Positions 6,937-31,224 of a stretch of 32,347 nucleotides of DNA are shown here, one piece after another. The notes beneath the pieces are model-generated. The model had not been told where the DNA came from. It did not search any database and saw only the letters and a program-made list of their open reading frames with translations. How positions within the stretch are numbered: position 1 is the first letter of the stretch; the number at the start of each line of letters is the position of its first letter. Origin of the DNA: Pseudomonadota bacterium. Its GTDB lineage: Bacteria; Pseudomonadota; Gammaproteobacteria; Burkholderiales; Burkholderiaceae_C. The translations under genes and the position numbers were made by a program. The DNA is taken from contig JAUNTQ010000031.1 in NCBI GenBank assembly GCA_030538605.1, forward strand, positions 1-32,347. Direction: 5' to 3'.

Positions 6937-8379
6937 ATGGCCGGCATGCAACTGAACTTCATCGCCAACGCCCCCGCCGCCAGCGCCAGCGGCCAGACCC
7001 TGCCCGTCATCGACCCGTCCGACGGCCAGCCCTTTGACGAGATTCAGCGCAGCGACGCGCGCGACATCGACGCCGCCGTGCAGGCCGCGCGCGCCGCCTT
7101 CAACGGCCCCTGGGGCCGCACCAGCGCCGCCGAGCGCAGCCGCCTGCTCATGCGCCTGTCGCAAGCCGTCTCAGCCCACGCCGACGAGCTGTGGCAGCTG
7201 GAGCAGCGCGACTGCGGCAAGCCCACCACCCAGGCCAAGGCCGACGCCGCCGCGCTCGCGCGCTACTTCGAGTTCTACGCCGGCGCGTGCGACAAGCTGC
7301 ACGGCGAAACCATCCCCTACCAGAGCGGCTACAGCGTCTTCACCTGGCGCGAGCCGCACGGCGTGACCGGCCACGTCATCCCGTGGAACTACCCCATGCA
7401 GATCTTCGGGCGCAGCGTGGGCGGCGCGCTGGCCGCGGGCAACGCCTGCGTGGTCAAGCCTGCCGAAGACGCCTGCCTGTCGCTCGTCCGCGTGGCGCAA
7501 CTGGCCGCCGACGTGGGCTTTCCGCCCGGCGCCATCAACATCGTCACCGGCTACGGCCACGAAGTGGGCGACGCGCTGGCGCGCCACCCCGGCATCGACC
7601 ACCTCAGCTTCACCGGCAGCCCGCGCGTGGGCACCCTCATCAGCCAAGTGGCTGCCGAGCGGCACTGCCCCGTCACGCTGGAGCTGGGCGGCAAAAGCCC
7701 GCAAATCATCTTTGCCGACGCCGACCTGGATGCCGCCATCCCCGTCGTCATCAACGCCATCGTGCAAAACGCCGGGCAAACGTGCAGCGCAGGCTCGCGC
7801 GTGCTGATCGAGCGGGGCATTTACGACACGCTGCTCGGCCGCCTGGGCGAGGCTTTTGAAGCCCTGCGCGTCGGCCCCGCCGCGCTCAACCTCGACGTTG
7901 GCCCGCTCATCCGCCAGAGCCAGCAGCAGCGCGTGTGGGATTTCTTGAGCGACGCGCAAAGCGCCGGCATCCCCCTCGTCGCGCAAGGCACGGTGGTTGA
8001 CGAAGCGCCCGACACCGGCTTCTACCAGGCCCCCGTGCTGCTGGCCGACGTGCCGGTTGACCACCGCGTGGCGCAGGAAGAAGTCTTCGGCCCCGTGCTG
8101 TGCGCCATGCCGTTTGAGGGTGAAGACCACGCCGTGCAACTGGCCAACGCCACCGCCTTCGGCCTGGTGGCTGGCGTGTGGACGGCAGACGGCGCGCGCC
8201 AATTTCGCATGGCCCGCCGCGTGCGAAGCGGCCAGGTCTTCATCAACAACTACGGCGCTGGCGGCGGCGTGGAACTGCCCTTCGGCGGCTTCGGCGCCAG
8301 CGGCCACGGGCGCGAAAAAGGCTTCGAGGCGCTGTACGGCTTCACCACGCTGAAGACGGTGGCCGTGCGGCACGGGTGA
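6937..8379 (+). CDS. NAD(P)-dependent aldehyde dehydrogenase
   Basis: A 480-residue ALDH superfamily enzyme that oxidises an aldehyde to its acid. The family motifs appear in order: GHVIPWNYPMQ, KPAEDACLS, the cofactor loop FTGSPRVG, the general base E249 in LELGGKSP, the nucleophile C283 in GQTCSAGSR, and EEVFGPVL. The E-to-C spacing of 34 is standard. The C-terminus ELPFGGFGASGHGREKG is typical of betaine-aldehyde and aminobutyraldehyde-type subfamilies. Start ATG 6937 (MAGMQLNF); ATG 6946 is an alternative. It converges on the gamma-glutamyltransferase gene with only 13 bp between stops. It could oxidise the aldehyde made by the nearby GabT, but substrate is not determined by sequence. Confidence 0.92.
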   Translation: MAGMQLNFIANAPAASASGQTLPVIDPSDGQPFDEIQRSDARDIDAAVQAARAAFNGPWGRTSAAERSRLLMRLSQAVSAHADELWQLEQRDCGKPTTQAKADAAALARYFEFYAGACDKLHGETIPYQSGYSVFTWREPHGVTGHVIPWNYPMQIFGRSVGGALAAGNACVVKPAEDACLSLVRVAQLAADVGFPPGAINIVTGYGHEVGDALARHPGIDHLSFTGSPRVGTLISQVAAERHCPVTLELGGKSPQIIFADADLDAAIPVVINAIVQNAGQTCSAGSRVLIERGIYDTLLGRLGEAFEALRVGPAALNLDVGPLIRQSQQQRVWDFLSDAQSAGIPLVAQGTVVDEAPDTGFYQAPVLLADVPVDHRVAQEEVFGPVLCAMPFEGEDHAVQLANATAFGLVAGVWTADGARQFRMARRVRSGQVFINNYGAGGGVELPFGGFGASGHGREKGFEALYGFTTLKTVAVRHG

Positions 8380-8392
8380 GCCAAGGCGCTGC

Positions 8393-9982
8393 TCAGAACC
8401 CCACCGCCTGCCCGTCACGGCGCGAATCCGAAGCGCCCACGTAGCCTTCGCGCGTCTTGTAGACCATCTGCGCAGCGCCAAAGTCCAGGCTGTCCGGCGC
8501 GCCCACCGCCACGTGGTGGCCCATGCCCTGCAAGGCCTGCACCACGGCGGGCGGCAGGTGCGATTCGACGTTGACCACCGGCCCCGGCTCCACGCGAAAG
8601 CGCGGCGCGTCGCTCATGGCCTGCGGGTTCTGGCCGAAGGCCGCCAGGCGCACCATCATCTGCACGTGGCCTTGCGCCTGCATGGAGCCGCCCATCACGC
8701 CCAGCGCCATCACCGGCTGCCCGCCCCGCGTGACAAAGCCTGGAATGATGGTGTGCAGCGGCTGCTTGCGCGGCCCCACGGCGTTGACGTGCGCGGCGTC
8801 CAGGCTGAAACCCTCGCCCCGGTTGTGCAGCGCGATGCCCGTGCCCGGCACCACCACGCCCGAACCAAAGCCACGGTAGTTGGACTGGATGAACGACACC
8901 ATCGTGCCCTCTGCGTCCGCTGCGGCCAGATACACCGTGCCACCGATTTTGGGTAAACCCGCCGCTGGCGTGCTGGCGCGGCGCAGGTCGATCAACGCGG
9001 CGCGCTCGTTGAGGTAGGCCGGCTCCAAAAAAGCCGATGCCGGCACGCGCATGCTGGCCGGGTCGGCCACGTGGCGGTGCAGGTCGGCAAAGGCCAGCTT
9101 CATGGCCTCGATGCCCACGTGGTAGGCGGCGGCGCTGTCCAGGCCCATGCCCTCCAGGTCAAAGCGCTCCAGAATGCCCAGCGCGATCAGCGCCGCCAAC
9201 CCCTGCCCATTGGGCGGAATCTCGTGCAACTGGTAGCCGCGAAAGCCTTGCGCCAGCGGCGTGACCCACGACACGGCGTGCTGCGCCAGATCGTCCTCGG
9301 TCAGCAGGCCGCCGGTCTGGCGGGCAAAGTGCGCCATGCGCTCGGCCAGCGCGCCACGGTAAAAACTCTCACCGCCGCTTTCGGCAATTTGCGCCAGCGT
9401 GGCGGCCTGGTCGGCAAAGCGCCAGCGCTCGCCCGGCCCTGGCGCACGCCCGTCACGCAAGAAGGCGTCGGCAAAACCCGGCTGCTGGGCCAGCACCGGC
9501 ACCTGCGCCGCCCAGATGCGCGCGATTTGCGGCGACACCTGAAAGCCCCGCTCGGCGTAGCCGATGGCGGGCTCGAACAGGCGCTCAAAAGGCAGCCGCC
9601 CAAAACGCTGCGACAGCGCACGCCAGCCCGCCACCTGCCCCGGCACGGTGACCGTGTCCCAGCCGGTCTTGGGCATTTGTGTGTACTGGGCGAAATGCCC
9701 GGGCGTCCAGCCGGCGGGCGAGCGGCCGCTGGCGTTCAGGCCGTGCAGCTCGCCCTTGTGCCACACCAGTGCGAACAAATCACCGCCAATGCCGTTCATC
9801 ACCGGCTCGACCACCGTGAGCGCGATGGCGGTGGCCAGCGCGGCATCCACCGCGTTGCCGCCGCCCAGCAGCATGCGCAGGCCCGCCTGTGCGGCCAGCG
9901 GCTGGCCGGTGGCCACCACGTTGTCGGCCAGCACGGGCATGCGTTGCGAGGGGTAGGGAAAGCGCCAGTCGAAATCGGGCAT
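8393..9982 (-). CDS. Gamma-glutamyltransferase-family protein without signal peptide
   Basis: A 529-residue member of the self-processing gamma-glutamyltranspeptidase (Ntn-hydrolase) family, which hydrolyses or transfers gamma-glutamyl groups. The likely processing site and catalytic nucleophile is T349 in KIGGTVYLAAAD. The N-terminal segment GGGNAVDAALATAIALTVVEP and the C-terminal MALGVMGGSMQAQGH are family hallmarks. There is no export signal, unlike the periplasmic Ggt of E. coli, so it probably acts in the cytoplasm. It is the last gene of the gabT / Bug / GGT operon. It could release glutamate from an imported gamma-glutamyl compound, a job done by PuuD in E. coli putrescine breakdown. 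The substrate is inferred only from context. Confidence 0.88.
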   Translation of the reverse strand: MPDFDWRFPYPSQRMPVLADNVVATGQPLAAQAGLRMLLGGGNAVDAALATAIALTVVEPVMNGIGGDLFALVWHKGELHGLNASGRSPAGWTPGHFAQYTQMPKTGWDTVTVPGQVAGWRALSQRFGRLPFERLFEPAIGYAERGFQVSPQIARIWAAQVPVLAQQPGFADAFLRDGRAPGPGERWRFADQAATLAQIAESGGESFYRGALAERMAHFARQTGGLLTEDDLAQHAVSWVTPLAQGFRGYQLHEIPPNGQGLAALIALGILERFDLEGMGLDSAAAYHVGIEAMKLAFADLHRHVADPASMRVPASAFLEPAYLNERAALIDLRRASTPAAGLPKIGGTVYLAAADAEGTMVSFIQSNYRGFGSGVVVPGTGIALHNRGEGFSLDAAHVNAVGPRKQPLHTIIPGFVTRGGQPVMALGVMGGSMQAQGHVQMMVRLAAFGQNPQAMSDAPRFRVEPGPVVNVESHLPPAVVQALQGMGHHVAVGAPDSLDFGAAQMVYKTREGYVGASDSRRDGQAVGF

Positions 9983-21994: not shown

Positions 21995-22335
21995 GGCAAC
22001 AGCCCAACACCCTCATGCCAAGGACGCAAAGGATTCGCGAAGGACGCGAAAGAAATACCAAGAAGTGGATTTCGTGGCTTTCGTAGGCTGGGTAGAGCGA
22101 AGCGAAACCCAGCTTCTTGCCCATGCCGCATGCTGGGTTTCGCTTCGCTCTACCCAGCCTACAAAGCAGCGTGCCGGCACGCGCAGCGCGCAAAAATAGC
22201 CCGTGATTTACTCTCAAAAATATAGCTTCTTGCGCTGTATTTACAAAGGTTTCATGACAATTTCATTTGAATTCTGAATTTTTCGCGTCCGGCAGTTCTG
22301 GCTTTTCAGCCCCCGCTCTCTGACCCCCACCCCCC
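21995..22335. repeat. Repeat-filled gap before recJ
   Basis: No gene is seen in these 341 bp. It contains a unit of the GCCAAGGACGCAAAGGATTC family at 22014-22053, the REP pair at 22083-22162, and a half-element TATAGCTTCTTGCGC near 22221-22235 that resembles one arm of the 82-bp palindrome. The last 130 bp are AT-rich and may hold the recJ promoter, but I could not place the boxes. Confidence 0.6.
22083..22162. repeat. Inverted pair of RAYT-type REP sequences, pair 1
   Basis: The 31-bp unit at 22083-22113 (beginning GTAGGCTGGGTAGAGCG) is perfectly inverted at 22132-22162, with 18 bp between. It differs by one base from the repeats that flank the transposase gene at 30635-31168. The pair has no coding sequence inside and is a non-autonomous (BIME-like) element. 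Confidence 0.92.
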
Positions 22336-26150: not shown

Positions 26151-27380
26151 TCAACCCGCTTCGTCAAACAAAGGCATGGCCGCCGCCGCATCGCCATCGG
26201 CATGCAGAGCATCCGGCTTGGCCAGCGAGCCGACGCGCACGCCCAGCAGGCGGATGCGGCGGCTGAGGTCCACGCGCTTGAGGCACTGGCCGGCCACCTG
26301 GCGGATGCGCTGCGCGTCTTGCGTGTGCGCGGCCACGGTCTGGTCGCGCGTGGCGATCTTGAAGTCGTCAAAGCGCAGCTTGATGCCGATGGTTTTGCCC
26401 ACGTAGCCCTTGCGCTGCAAATCGCCCGCCACCTGCTCGCACAGGCGGGTGAAGATGCGGCCCAGCTCGGCGCGGTCGCGCACGGCATGCAGATCGCGCT
26501 CGAAGGTGGTTTCGCGGCTCATGCTGACGGGCTCGCTTTCGGTGACCACGGGGCGCTCGTCGCGGCCATGCGCGGCGTCGTGCAGCCAGGCGCCGTAGCT
26601 TTTGCCGAAGTGCGCCATCAGCCAAGGGCGCTCGCGCGCGGCCAGCTCGCCAATGGTGGCGATGCCGTGGCTTTGCAGCTTGGCGTCGGCCTTGGGGCCA
26701 ATGCCGTTGATCTTGCGGCAGGGCAGCGGCCAGATCAGCGTTTGCACATCGCCCTCGTGCACGATGCTGATGCCGTTCGGTTTGTTGAACTCGCTTGCCA
26801 TCTTGGCCAGCAGCTTGTTGGGCGCGACGCCGATGGAGCAGGTCAGCCCCGTGGCGTCGGCAATGCTTTTCTGAATGAGCCGCGCCAGCACGCGCCCGCC
26901 TTCGCGCTGGCCGCCGGGCACGTGGGTGAAGTCGATGTAGACCTCGTCCACACCCCGGTCTTCCATCACCGGGGCAATGCCGCGAATGACGGCCTTGAAG
27001 GCGCGTGAGTAGTGACGGTATTGGTCGAAATCGACCGGCAGCAAGATGGCCTGCGGGCACAGCCTGGCGGCCTTCATCAGCCCCATCGCCGAGCCAATGC
27101 CGAAGGGCCGCGCCGCGTAAGTGGCGGTGGTGATGACGCCGCGGCCCACGTAGTCGCGCAGCAGGGGGAAGAAGCTGACGGGGATGTCGGCCAGGTCGGC
27201 GGCCGTCCAGCTGCGCTCGGGCCGCTCGGCGTTCAGGCGGCCGATCAGGTCGTCTTCCTTGCGCCGGCCGCCGCCAATCACCATCGGCAGCCCTTTGAGC
27301 TGCGGATAGCGCAGCCACTCGACCGAGGCGTAGAACGCGTCCATGTCGAGGTGGGCGATGCGGCGGGGTAGAGTGCTCAC
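26151..27380 (-). CDS. dinB: DNA polymerase IV (Y-family translesion polymerase)
   Basis: A 409-residue Y-family polymerase. Catalytic metal ligands are D12 in HLDMDAFYASVE and D145/E146 in RGVDEVYIDF. The helix-hairpin-helix NGIGPKADAKLQSHGI and the little-finger domain (ETTFERDL, IGIKLRFDDF, IRLLGVRVGSL) follow. Between PMVIGGG and GRGVITTATYAARPFG there is an insert of about 40 residues compared with E. coli DinB; from memory betaproteobacterial DinB proteins have a variable insert here. I prefer the GTG start at 27380; a TTG at 27413 is also possible. The gene is divergent from the FRP-like gene, 38 bp away, across a palindrome. No CTGT-N8-ACAG LexA box is seen. Confidence 0.94.
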   Translation of the reverse strand: MSTLPRRIAHLDMDAFYASVEWLRYPQLKGLPMVIGGGRRKEDDLIGRLNAERPERSWTAADLADIPVSFFPLLRDYVGRGVITTATYAARPFGIGSAMGLMKAARLCPQAILLPVDFDQYRHYSRAFKAVIRGIAPVMEDRGVDEVYIDFTHVPGGQREGGRVLARLIQKSIADATGLTCSIGVAPNKLLAKMASEFNKPNGISIVHEGDVQTLIWPLPCRKINGIGPKADAKLQSHGIATIGELAARERPWLMAHFGKSYGAWLHDAAHGRDERPVVTESEPVSMSRETTFERDLHAVRDRAELGRIFTRLCEQVAGDLQRKGYVGKTIGIKLRFDDFKIATRDQTVAAHTQDAQRIRQVAGQCLKRVDLSRRIRLLGVRVGSLAKPDALHADGDAAAAMPLFDEAG

Positions 27381-27398
27381 CCGCCTGAGCTTATCGGC

Positions 27399-27413
27399 TT
27401 GAACGCCGTTCAA
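27399..27413. promoter_or_regulatory. Palindrome between dinB and the FRP-like gene
   Basis: TTGAAC-GCC-GTTCAA is a perfect 6-bp inverted repeat with a 3-bp centre. It lies in the 38 bp that separate the two divergent start codons. It could be an operator acting on both genes. It is not the gammaproteobacterial LexA box, and resembles GAAC-N4-GTTC boxes of Gram-positive LexA only loosely because of its 3-bp spacer. Confidence 0.4.
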
Positions 27414-27418
27414 CCTGC

Positions 27419-27772
27419 ATGACCACCGACTACAAATGGAGCGCCGCCGACAAGAAAACCGCGCGGCGCTTGTACGACGCCGCGCTGGCGGCCGAGCTGG
27501 CCGAGGTGCTGGCCGACTTCAAGGCGCGCGCGGCCGCTGCCGAAGACGTGCAGGCCATGTGGGCCATCCACGACCACCTGCGCCACGTGGGGCGCGAGCT
27601 GGAGGGGAAATACGTCTACACCTATTCCCGCCTGGACTGGCTGCTGCTGCGCCTGGTGCATGAAGGGCGTTTGAGCGAGGCCGATCTGGACGCCTTCAGC
27701 CCGGGCAAGCGTGAGGAGCTTGGGCAGATGCTCGACAGCGCGCGGGCCATGCGGCGATCGGCAGGCGGCTGA
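27419..27772 (+). CDS. Small helical protein resembling cyanobacterial fluorescence recovery protein (FRP)
   Basis: A 117-residue all-helical protein without signal peptide. Its pattern matches, from memory, cyanobacterial FRP along the whole length: an opening WSAAD (W7), ARRLYDAALAAELAEVLA, then MWAIHDHL, RELEGKY, and LLLRLVHEGRLSEADLDAFS. Residues equal to FRP W50, H53 and D54 are W48, H51 and D52. The FRP arginine R60 position is Gly58, with Arg59 next to it. In cyanobacteria FRP binds orange carotenoid protein and speeds its return to the inactive form. No such protein is in this window and none is expected in this group, so the role here must differ or the partner is unknown. Start ATG 27419, divergent from dinB by 38 bp. 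Family call is mine; function unknown. Confidence 0.7.
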   Translation: MTTDYKWSAADKKTARRLYDAALAAELAEVLADFKARAAAAEDVQAMWAIHDHLRHVGRELEGKYVYTYSRLDWLLLRLVHEGRLSEADLDAFSPGKREELGQMLDSARAMRRSAGG

Positions 27773-27790: not shown

Positions 27791-28015
27791 GCGCAGAGGA
27801 CGCGAAGGATTCGCGAAGGACGCAAAAGAACAGCCACAAGGCTTTGTTTTTCTCCTTCTGGGCCTTGTGTATGGATACATCTTTGCAGGCTGGGTAGAGC
27901 GTCAGCGAAACCCAGCAAACCGGCGCGCGAGAACGCTGGGTTTCGCTGCGCTCTACCCAGCCTACAAAAACCTGTCTTTTTCGCGTCCTTCGCGGATCCT
28001 TTGCGTCCTTGGCAT
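27791..28015. repeat. Composite nested repeat: outer GGACGC units around a REP pair
   Basis: Outer unit 27791-27830 (GGACGCGAAGGATTCGCGAA and on) is inverted at 27975-28015 (TTCGCGTCCTTCGCGGATCC and on). Between them lie RAYT-type REP units at 27885-27916 and 27935-27965; the right unit is identical to the one beside the transposase. The whole fills most of the 266-bp gap between the FRP-like gene and the thioredoxin-like gene. No gene is present. Confidence 0.88.
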
Positions 28016-28038: not shown

Positions 28039-28578
28039 TCACCAACCCGCCCACCACAGCCGCAGCCGCATGCCCAGCTCGGTCGTGTAGCCCACGCTGG
28101 TGGTGGCCACGCGCCCATCAGGGCGAACCACCACCAGCGCAGGCACCGAGCCCAGGCCATAGCTGCGCGCCAGCGCGCCCTGCGGATCCACCACCGTGGC
28201 CCACGGCAAATCGCGCTGGGTGAGCACGCGCCGCACCGCCCCCACATCGCCCGAGCGCATCGCCACCGTCAGCACCGGCCAGTCAGCCGACACGCGGGTG
28301 ATGTTGTGCTGCTCCAGCCGGCACACGCCGCACCACTCGGCCCAGAAGTGCAGCGCCACGGGTCGCCCGGGGTGCGCGGCGCGCCACTGCGCCAGGCTCA
28401 TCACCGCGCCGTCTTGCACGCTCACGGCCAGCGCGCTGAAGTCGGGCGCCGGGCCGCTGGGCACGTGGCGCGTCTGCCAGAAATGCGCCGCCACCAGCAC
28501 CGCCGCCACGATGGCCAGCGACCCAAGGTGCGACCGCCATTGGCGCCGCAGCGACCCCATCACTTTGCCCAAACCCAT
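28039..28578 (-). CDS. Membrane-anchored thioredoxin-like protein (ScsD/TlpA type)
   Basis: A 179-residue thiol-disulfide oxidoreductase. The N-terminus has one membrane span (about residues 18-32, LGSLAIVAAVLVAAHFW), placing the domain in the periplasm. The active site is WAEWCGVCR with C83 and C86, and the cis-proline is in GSVPALVVVRPDGRV. The segment VLTVAMRSGDVGAVRRVL resembles ScsD (suppressor of copper sensitivity D) more than TlpA. Start ATG 28578; ATG 28605 is possible. It is divergent from trpB2, 79 bp apart. The redox partner is unknown, and no other scs genes are near. Confidence 0.85.
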   Translation of the reverse strand: MGLGKVMGSLRRQWRSHLGSLAIVAAVLVAAHFWQTRHVPSGPAPDFSALAVSVQDGAVMSLAQWRAAHPGRPVALHFWAEWCGVCRLEQHNITRVSADWPVLTVAMRSGDVGAVRRVLTQRDLPWATVVDPQGALARSYGLGSVPALVVVRPDGRVATTSVGYTTELGMRLRLWWAGW

Positions 28579-30107: not shown

Positions 30108-30518
30108 ATGGCGATTTTCGTTACCGCAAAACAAAACATTCGCATCGGCAACTCCAAGCACGTCGAAGGAAAAGCTCCTGAAGGCAACTATTCAGCAGTT
30201 TTTGAAGATGATGGAAACACAGGCTATTTTTATGCCTTGGACTACAGCCGCGAAAACCAGCCGATCCAAAATGCACTTCACATCTACGATGTCGCCAGCA
30301 TCACAGACAAACATTTGCCATCGGAAATAAAAATCGGCTGGTCAATGGACAGCAACAAGGTAGTCCTTCTCATAAATGAATATCCTCACGCTGTTTTTGA
30401 TTTTTTCTCAAAGCGAGGCTATTGCCGCAATGAATTTCCGCCCCCCACAAAAAATTCCGGCTGGTCAGGCCATGAATGGTCAGATGAATCTATCGAATTG
30501 TTCGCGGGCGATCCCTAA
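30108..30518 (+). CDS. DUF2251-like small protein in AT-rich DNA
   Basis: A 136-residue protein, probably soluble and without signal peptide (MAIFVTAKQNIRIGNSKHVE). The block YSAVFEDDGNTGYFYALDYS resembles, from memory, DUF2251 (COG4859) proteins, which have no known function. The gene and its flanks are visibly richer in A and T and use codons unlike the neighbours, which points to acquisition from elsewhere. It lies 85 bp after trpB2 and just left of the transposase element. Small lone proteins like this are sometimes immunity proteins for toxins, but no toxin gene is seen, so that is only a thought. Confidence 0.65.
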   Translation: MAIFVTAKQNIRIGNSKHVEGKAPEGNYSAVFEDDGNTGYFYALDYSRENQPIQNALHIYDVASITDKHLPSEIKIGWSMDSNKVVLLINEYPHAVFDFFSKRGYCRNEFPPPTKNSGWSGHEWSDESIELFAGDP

Positions 30519-30594: not shown

Positions 30595-31224
30595 GTAGGC
30601 TGGGTAGAGCGCAGCGAAACCCAGCAAGCGCCGGTTATTCACCGAACATCGCACCGCCATCGTCCCCACCCGCCGCCCAATCCGCAGGCAAACGTCCCTC
30701 GCGCACATAGCGGTGAAAGCTGGAATACGGCCAGGCACCCGGTGTTTTCGCCCAGCCGTGTTTGACGGGGTTGTAGTGGATGTAATCCACGTGGCGCGCA
30801 AAGTCCTCTTCGTCGCGAATCTGATGTTCCCAATAGCGACGCTGCCAGATGCCGCGCTCGCCCTTGGCCTGGCGGCTTGGTGAGATGAATTCCGCCTTGG
30901 GAATGGCGGCCGAGAATTTCGATTTGATCTGCCGCCAGCGCAGCGAATAGTCGCCGTCTTGCGGCGGCAAAGTCCAGAGGCAATGCAGGTGGTCGGGCAG
31001 CACGACCATGGCGTCGATGCTGAAGGGGTGGCGCGCTTTGACCTGGGCCACGGCGGTGCGCAGGGCGTCGATGTGGCGGGTCAGGGTGTCGTTGCCTTGC
31101 CGCTCGGCCAGGGTGACGGTGAAGAAATAGGTGGCGCCGCTGAGATGGGAGCGGATGTAGCGGCGCATTTTGGGGTTTGTGGCGTGCGGGCAAGCTGGGT
31201 TTCGCTGCGCTCTACCCAGCCTAC
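30595..31224. mobile_element. RAYT element with perfect 31-bp inverted repeats
   Basis: The 31-bp unit at 30595-30625 (GTAGGCTGGGTAGAGCGCAG and on) is exactly inverted at 31194-31224. Between them lies the single REP-associated tyrosine transposase gene. The left repeat lies 9 bp from the transposase stop and the right 25 bp from its start. This is the likely source of the REP pairs at 22083, 25879 and 27885. Confidence 0.9.
30635..31168 (-). CDS. REP-associated tyrosine transposase (RAYT, Y1/IS200-like)
   Basis: A 177-residue Y1 HUH nuclease. The metal-binding HUH motif is H60-L-H62 in VVLPDHLHCLW. The conserved block WQRRYWEHQIRDEEDF follows, then VDYIHYNPVKHGW. By alignment with the E. 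coli TnpA-REP (YafM) sequence as I recall it, the catalytic tyrosine is Y129. Such enzymes cut and join single-stranded REP DNA and are thought to spread REP sequences; they do not move as typical insertion sequences. The frame is complete and all key residues are present. It is flanked by perfect inverted 31-bp REPs and seems intact. Confidence 0.95.
   Translation of the reverse strand: MRRYIRSHLSGATYFFTVTLAERQGNDTLTRHIDALRTAVAQVKARHPFSIDAMVVLPDHLHCLWTLPPQDGDYSLRWRQIKSKFSAAIPKAEFISPSRQAKGERGIWQRRYWEHQIRDEEDFARHVDYIHYNPVKHGWAKTPGAWPYSSFHRYVREGRLPADWAAGGDDGGAMFGE

Follow-up and report, generated by a model that had tools for sequence, protein, structure and literature searches.

A diverged FRP-like protein encoded beside dinB in a relative of Ottowia

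The window analysed here, a stretch of 32,347 nucleotides (contig JAUNTQ010000031.1, assembly GCA_030538605.1) from a bacterium related to Ottowia, carries a gene, frpl, whose product is a diverged relative of the fluorescence recovery protein (FRP). This FRP-like (FRPL) protein, P0001, adds a member to a family that has been described before; it keeps the predicted fold and has lost several of the family's most constant residues. We consider it reasonably probable, taking the reading as a whole, that frpl arrived horizontally, that the block it forms with the neighbouring dinB was later inverted, and that P0001 acts as a dimeric adaptor for a partner encoded elsewhere.

27419..27772, forward strand: frpl, FRP-like protein of 117 residues (open reading frame from the ATG at 27419 to the stop at 27772)

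Family membership and divergence of the window protein

The Pfam FRP model PF18032 matches P0001 with 42.1 bits (E 1.2e-10), above the gathering score of 26.6, and aligns residues 7-101 with profile positions 1-95 of 99. In a sequence search of the PDB the top match was 8ag8, the FRPL of P. borbori (E 4e-22; structure reported in PMC10172135), accompanied by the FRP structures 5tz0 (E 1.3e-08), 4jdq (E 1.6e-08) and 4jdx (E 1.7e-08), the last two from Synechocystis; the remaining six matches are unrelated (E of at least 0.6). A single-chain model predicts, with confidence, a long helical hairpin and a helical head domain. The FRP homology proposed in an earlier note, made from the letters alone, is thereby confirmed, and the predicted fold agrees with it. 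The frame is uninterrupted and carries a full coding score (66 over 117 residues, against 242 over the 420 of dinB), and the gene is present in one copy in its own assembly.

A gapless alignment with FRP places W48, H51 and D52 at W50, H53 and D54, and Gly58 at R60, just as the earlier note had read them; these four we take to be functional residues of FRP. By its title 4jdq is an R60K mutant, so either K or R of the reference stands against Gly58. Of 79 relatives, 65 carry R at this position, ten Q, two G and two K, and Gly58 is therefore rare yet not unique. Identity to P0001 is 24-26% for Synechocystis Slr1964 FRP (4jdx) and Fremyella FRP (5tz0); P0001 differs from them in lacking R60 and all three residues with which FRP contacts the orange carotenoid protein (OCP). 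Among FRPLs, identity is 42% for Ottowia thiooxydans (L015) and L025, in a comparison that omitted L036 and the second L016 copy from the 81 references; for L125 it is 44%.

The relatives were chosen by a motif that spans D66, R68, Y69, S70, Q/V71 and L72 (numbering of P0001). Constancy at these columns is built into such a set, and we therefore relied on 20 motif-independent rows (17 from Pfam-model searches and three PDB fragments, with the two below-cut-off matches, L006 and L011, left out) and on a recount outside the motif. In the KYDYRYS segment D66 is present in 20/20 and R68 in 19/20 of these rows, whereas P0001 has V66 and T68; this D66/R68 signature was seen in the present survey and is not a published criterion. 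L011, which is not one of the 20, reads T by eye where D66 would stand. P0001 also lacks the usual R58, Q71 and F76. By comparison, 8ag8 retains D66, R68, Q71 and F76, where P0001 has V, T, R and L, and carries Q at the R60 place. Overall, P0001 deviates at 9 of the 26 columns conserved in at least 85% of alignment rows (the next row deviates at 6) and, outside the motif, at 6 of 19, the most of 80 rows (next row, 5). In a tree of 98 of the 102 rows, identical ones having been removed, its end branch is the longest (1.22 vs a median of 0.2). All 11 positions of the apolar FRP dimer interface, as listed in PMC6155142, are nonetheless apolar in P0001, which, with one chain modelled, is compatible with a homodimer. 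Because this interface is kept while R58, D66, R68, Q71 and F76 are absent, the ancestral binding patch is either relaxing, with the copy being lost, or rewired to a changed partner.

Distribution and gene neighbourhood of FRPL genes

FRPL genes are patchily distributed. PF18032 matches were found in five of 29 genomes of the genus, one of them below the cut-off, and, with the window's own genome always counted, in 8/399 genomes of the family, 6/399 of the order, 1/369 of the class (the own genome) and 4/398 of the phylum. A motif scan of one genome per species over 84,980 species yielded 178 confirmed relatives, 80 of which were analysed. Those listed belong mainly to Pseudomonadota and Acidobacteriota; a few contigs of metagenome-assembled genomes are filed as Chloroflexota, Planctomycetota, Ignavibacteriota (two), Bacillota and Methanothrix, some of them perhaps misbinned, and one isolate is filed as Mycobacterium. 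The contigs filed as Methanothrix (L085), Moorella (L081) and Mycobacterium (L037) may reflect misbinning, mislabelling or transfer; the L037 protein groups with that of Inquilinus limosus (100/98). A Pseudomonas metagenome-assembled genome (L016) carries two copies (8001-8318 and 9397-9690) about 1.1 kb apart, the sole double among the 80 loci. Within the genus and family, FRPLs occur sporadically (L015, L025, L004 and L125-L131). In L004, R replaces W48 and C replaces Y69, and in the genus relative L006 the frame (1486-1656) runs for about 56 residues before it stops close to the end of the contig, so that either the gene itself is broken or the assembly is at fault. The earlier note mentioned FRP-like proteins outside cyanobacteria; they are indeed on record, chiefly in proteobacteria and acidobacteria, sporadically and not in model organisms (Steube et al. 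2023, PMC10172135). No further paper on FRPL function was among the matches listed from the open-licence literature. Across 26 FRPL copies (238 pairs) the median dN/dS is 0.275 (range 0.112-0.558), a value from which we conclude that the family is being kept, under loose constraint.

With genes called by our own script, frpl was found in 75 of 81 loci, the window included. The upstream neighbour lies on the same strand in 60/72 cases and the downstream neighbour is convergent in 48/73. Using 70 of the 75 called genes, thinned to 54 with unshared neighbours, 24/54 frpl occupy this convergent slot, compared with 141/822 other genes (p 7e-06); with the window excluded and thinning by FRPL identity, 20/46, 25/53 and 38/69 do so. 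Insertion into a convergent gap in either direction would yield the same pattern, which thus fits a solitary cargo gene, although it is no proof of mobility. No recurring gene partner emerged in the loci examined: 99 neighbour proteins (one per cluster, leaving out those shorter than 60 or longer than 700 residues) match 116 Pfam families, each in at most three proteins. The NTF2-like partner suggested in the earlier note found no backing, as NTF2 (PF02136) is unmatched in a search of the genome that did not extend to SnoaL-type NTF2-like families; SnoaL_2 is matched by two of the 99 neighbour proteins, too few for an argument. Membership of anti-phage defence or of phage gene sets was likewise not found: P0001 and L015 have no match in PADLOC or PHROGs, two queries gave none in phage and plasmid records, and none of the 23 stretches in viral contigs that fitted the pattern was confirmed. 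A weak PADLOC match of the P. borbori protein (Cas7f, E 0.011) was read as chance.

The dinB locus and its inverted repeats

26151..27380, reverse strand: dinB, DNA polymerase IV (Pfam IMS and IMS_C; NCBIfam DNA polymerase IV, one model above cut-off)
27381..27418, no strand: divergent spacer of 38 bp with TAAGCT and the dyad TTGAAC-GCC-GTTCAA
25892..25964, no strand: left arm, 73 nt, of an inverted repeat of the repetitive extragenic palindrome (REP) type that bounds the dinB-frpl block
27882..27954, no strand: right arm of the same repeat, 92% complementary to the left
30635-31168: REP-associated tyrosine transposase (NF047646, 208 bits)

As the earlier note had it, dinB adjoins frpl divergently; its likely start is a GTG at 27380, 38 bp away, and its longest frame opens at a TTG at 27413. 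A match in 26/29 genomes marks it as core to the genus. TAAGCT, seen by eye directly upstream of dinB in 8/25 genus relatives as well, could be its -10 box.

With at most two mismatches allowed, the REP core has 60 matches in the genome, one of them at 27938-27965; a reversed control gave 0. Where fah is within reach of dinB (11/25 genus loci) it always has the same orientation as dinB and no frpl is present, whereas in the window the two are opposed. One of the 25 relatives, L110, has a thioredoxin-like gene convergent after dinB, the arrangement that the window would show with its dinB-frpl block turned back. We infer that this block was inverted by recombination between the two inverted REP repeats. 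An exact 31-nt inverted REP pair flanks the transposase region (30595-31224), and another inverted pair lies at 22083-22162. Elsewhere in the window, 28039-28578 encodes a thioredoxin-like protein (AhpC-TSA) whose N-terminal stretch resembles a membrane anchor by eye, and 30108-30518 a DUF2251 protein.

Possible roles of the window copy

Control of an OCP-like or other carotenoid-binding protein, in the cyanobacterial manner, would suit the shared fold and the retained equivalents of W50, H53 and D54, and one FRPL, from Desulfobacteraceae, clearly accelerates OCP1 recovery in vitro (PMC10172135). We nevertheless regard this role as scarcely credible. The OCP-contact residues F76, K102 and L106 of FRP (PMC10172135) correspond, at the gapless offset of +2, to W74, E100 and M104, none of the three alike, and R60 is Gly; the FRPLs of P. 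borbori, Methylocaldum and Chlorobi have virtually no effect on OCP1 recovery, and FRPL genomes are reported to be without OCP, HCP and CTDH (PMC10172135). Carot_N (PF09150) has no match in the own genome or in 20 FRPL genomes, where the controls gave none either, and OCP is likely absent from the own genome. A crtI-family desaturase is above cut-off in 3/20 FRPL genomes, the own genome not among them; these two counts, the Carot_N one lacking a positive control, argue against carotenoids as a general link. The conclusion drawn in the earlier note, that a conserved fold without its partner points to a different role, is the one reached in PMC10172135.

A second possibility is that frpl and dinB share a divergent promoter and work together, FRPL tuning DNA polymerase IV under stress. 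The divergent arrangement, the dyad within the short spacer and the rise of the P. borbori FRPL on starvation (PMC10172135) speak for such a pair, which we hold to be very improbable because the linkage is not conserved. DinB of the window was not found (tblastn, E 1e-8) in the FRPL loci of the 80 relatives, 50 of which extend at least 2.5 kb on both sides, nor in 19 further shorter ones; unlike the window locus, the stretches fetched for L015, L025, L004 and L125-L131 gave no DinB. Conversely, frpl was not found in the roughly 1.5 kb around dinB at 25 further loci from the genus, and in one genome (G017) the two genes share a contig some 36 kb apart. The survey of dinB-FRP pairs proposed in the earlier note thus returned no second case, and we read the adjacency as due to chance.

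A more serious alternative, though we think it the less probable course, is that frpl is a decaying, functionless copy of horizontal origin, stripped of its signature residues and perhaps also of a ribosome-binding site. The altered conserved columns, the V and T in place of D66 and R68, and the longest end branch are all as decay would have them, and the other worn copies in the genus (L004, L006) are in line with it. A Shine-Dalgarno-like 4-mer is missing upstream of the window gene and present in 60/81 relatives, but 21/81 lack it too. Against decay stand the open frame with its full coding signal, the wholly apolar interface and the confident fold, although an alignment-based prediction says little on decay.

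We return to the reading of a diverged, horizontally acquired adaptor. Under it, frpl would have been gained between fah and dinB, and the block later flipped via the two REP repeats. P0001 would form the helical FRP dimer and, by analogy with FRP, act as a small adaptor protein: its head domains would grip a partner whose gene lies elsewhere on the chromosome and alter that partner's conformation. P0001 would probably act in stress or starvation, as hinted by the polar foci and the rise on starvation of a P. borbori FRPL fusion protein (PMC10172135). Several points weigh against this reading. The adaptor role is an analogy, and the starvation link is one fusion-protein experiment in another species with protein copy number uncontrolled (Steube et al. 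2023). The slot bias depends on a home-made gene caller and, once the window is excluded and the loci thinned at 60% identity, drops to 6/22 vs 19/191 (p 0.03), and the window frpl itself lies outside the slot, since dinB is divergent. In addition, P0001 clusters in the tree (support 96/66) with L126, likewise a long branch, a grouping that the tree tool flags as a possible artefact; the long branch of P0001 itself can reflect decay instead of function, and a close orthologue for measuring selection was not found.

A bolder generalisation, which we put forward as doubtful, is that FRPL genes as a class roam singly through several phyla, settle in convergent gaps between unrelated genes and encode dimeric adaptors that act via a widely conserved core partner; the window copy would then be one whose binding patch was rewired to a new partner and whose dimer was kept. 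FRPLs are described as the source of the cyanobacterial photoprotection regulator FRP (Steube et al. 2023, PMC10172135). Our survey makes a general link between FRPLs and carotenoids unlikely and suggests that their partner will not emerge from gene neighbourhood. As a natural variant in which the fold and the apolar dimer interface are kept and the signature patch is lost, P0001 may offer a built-in contrast for the partner hunt.
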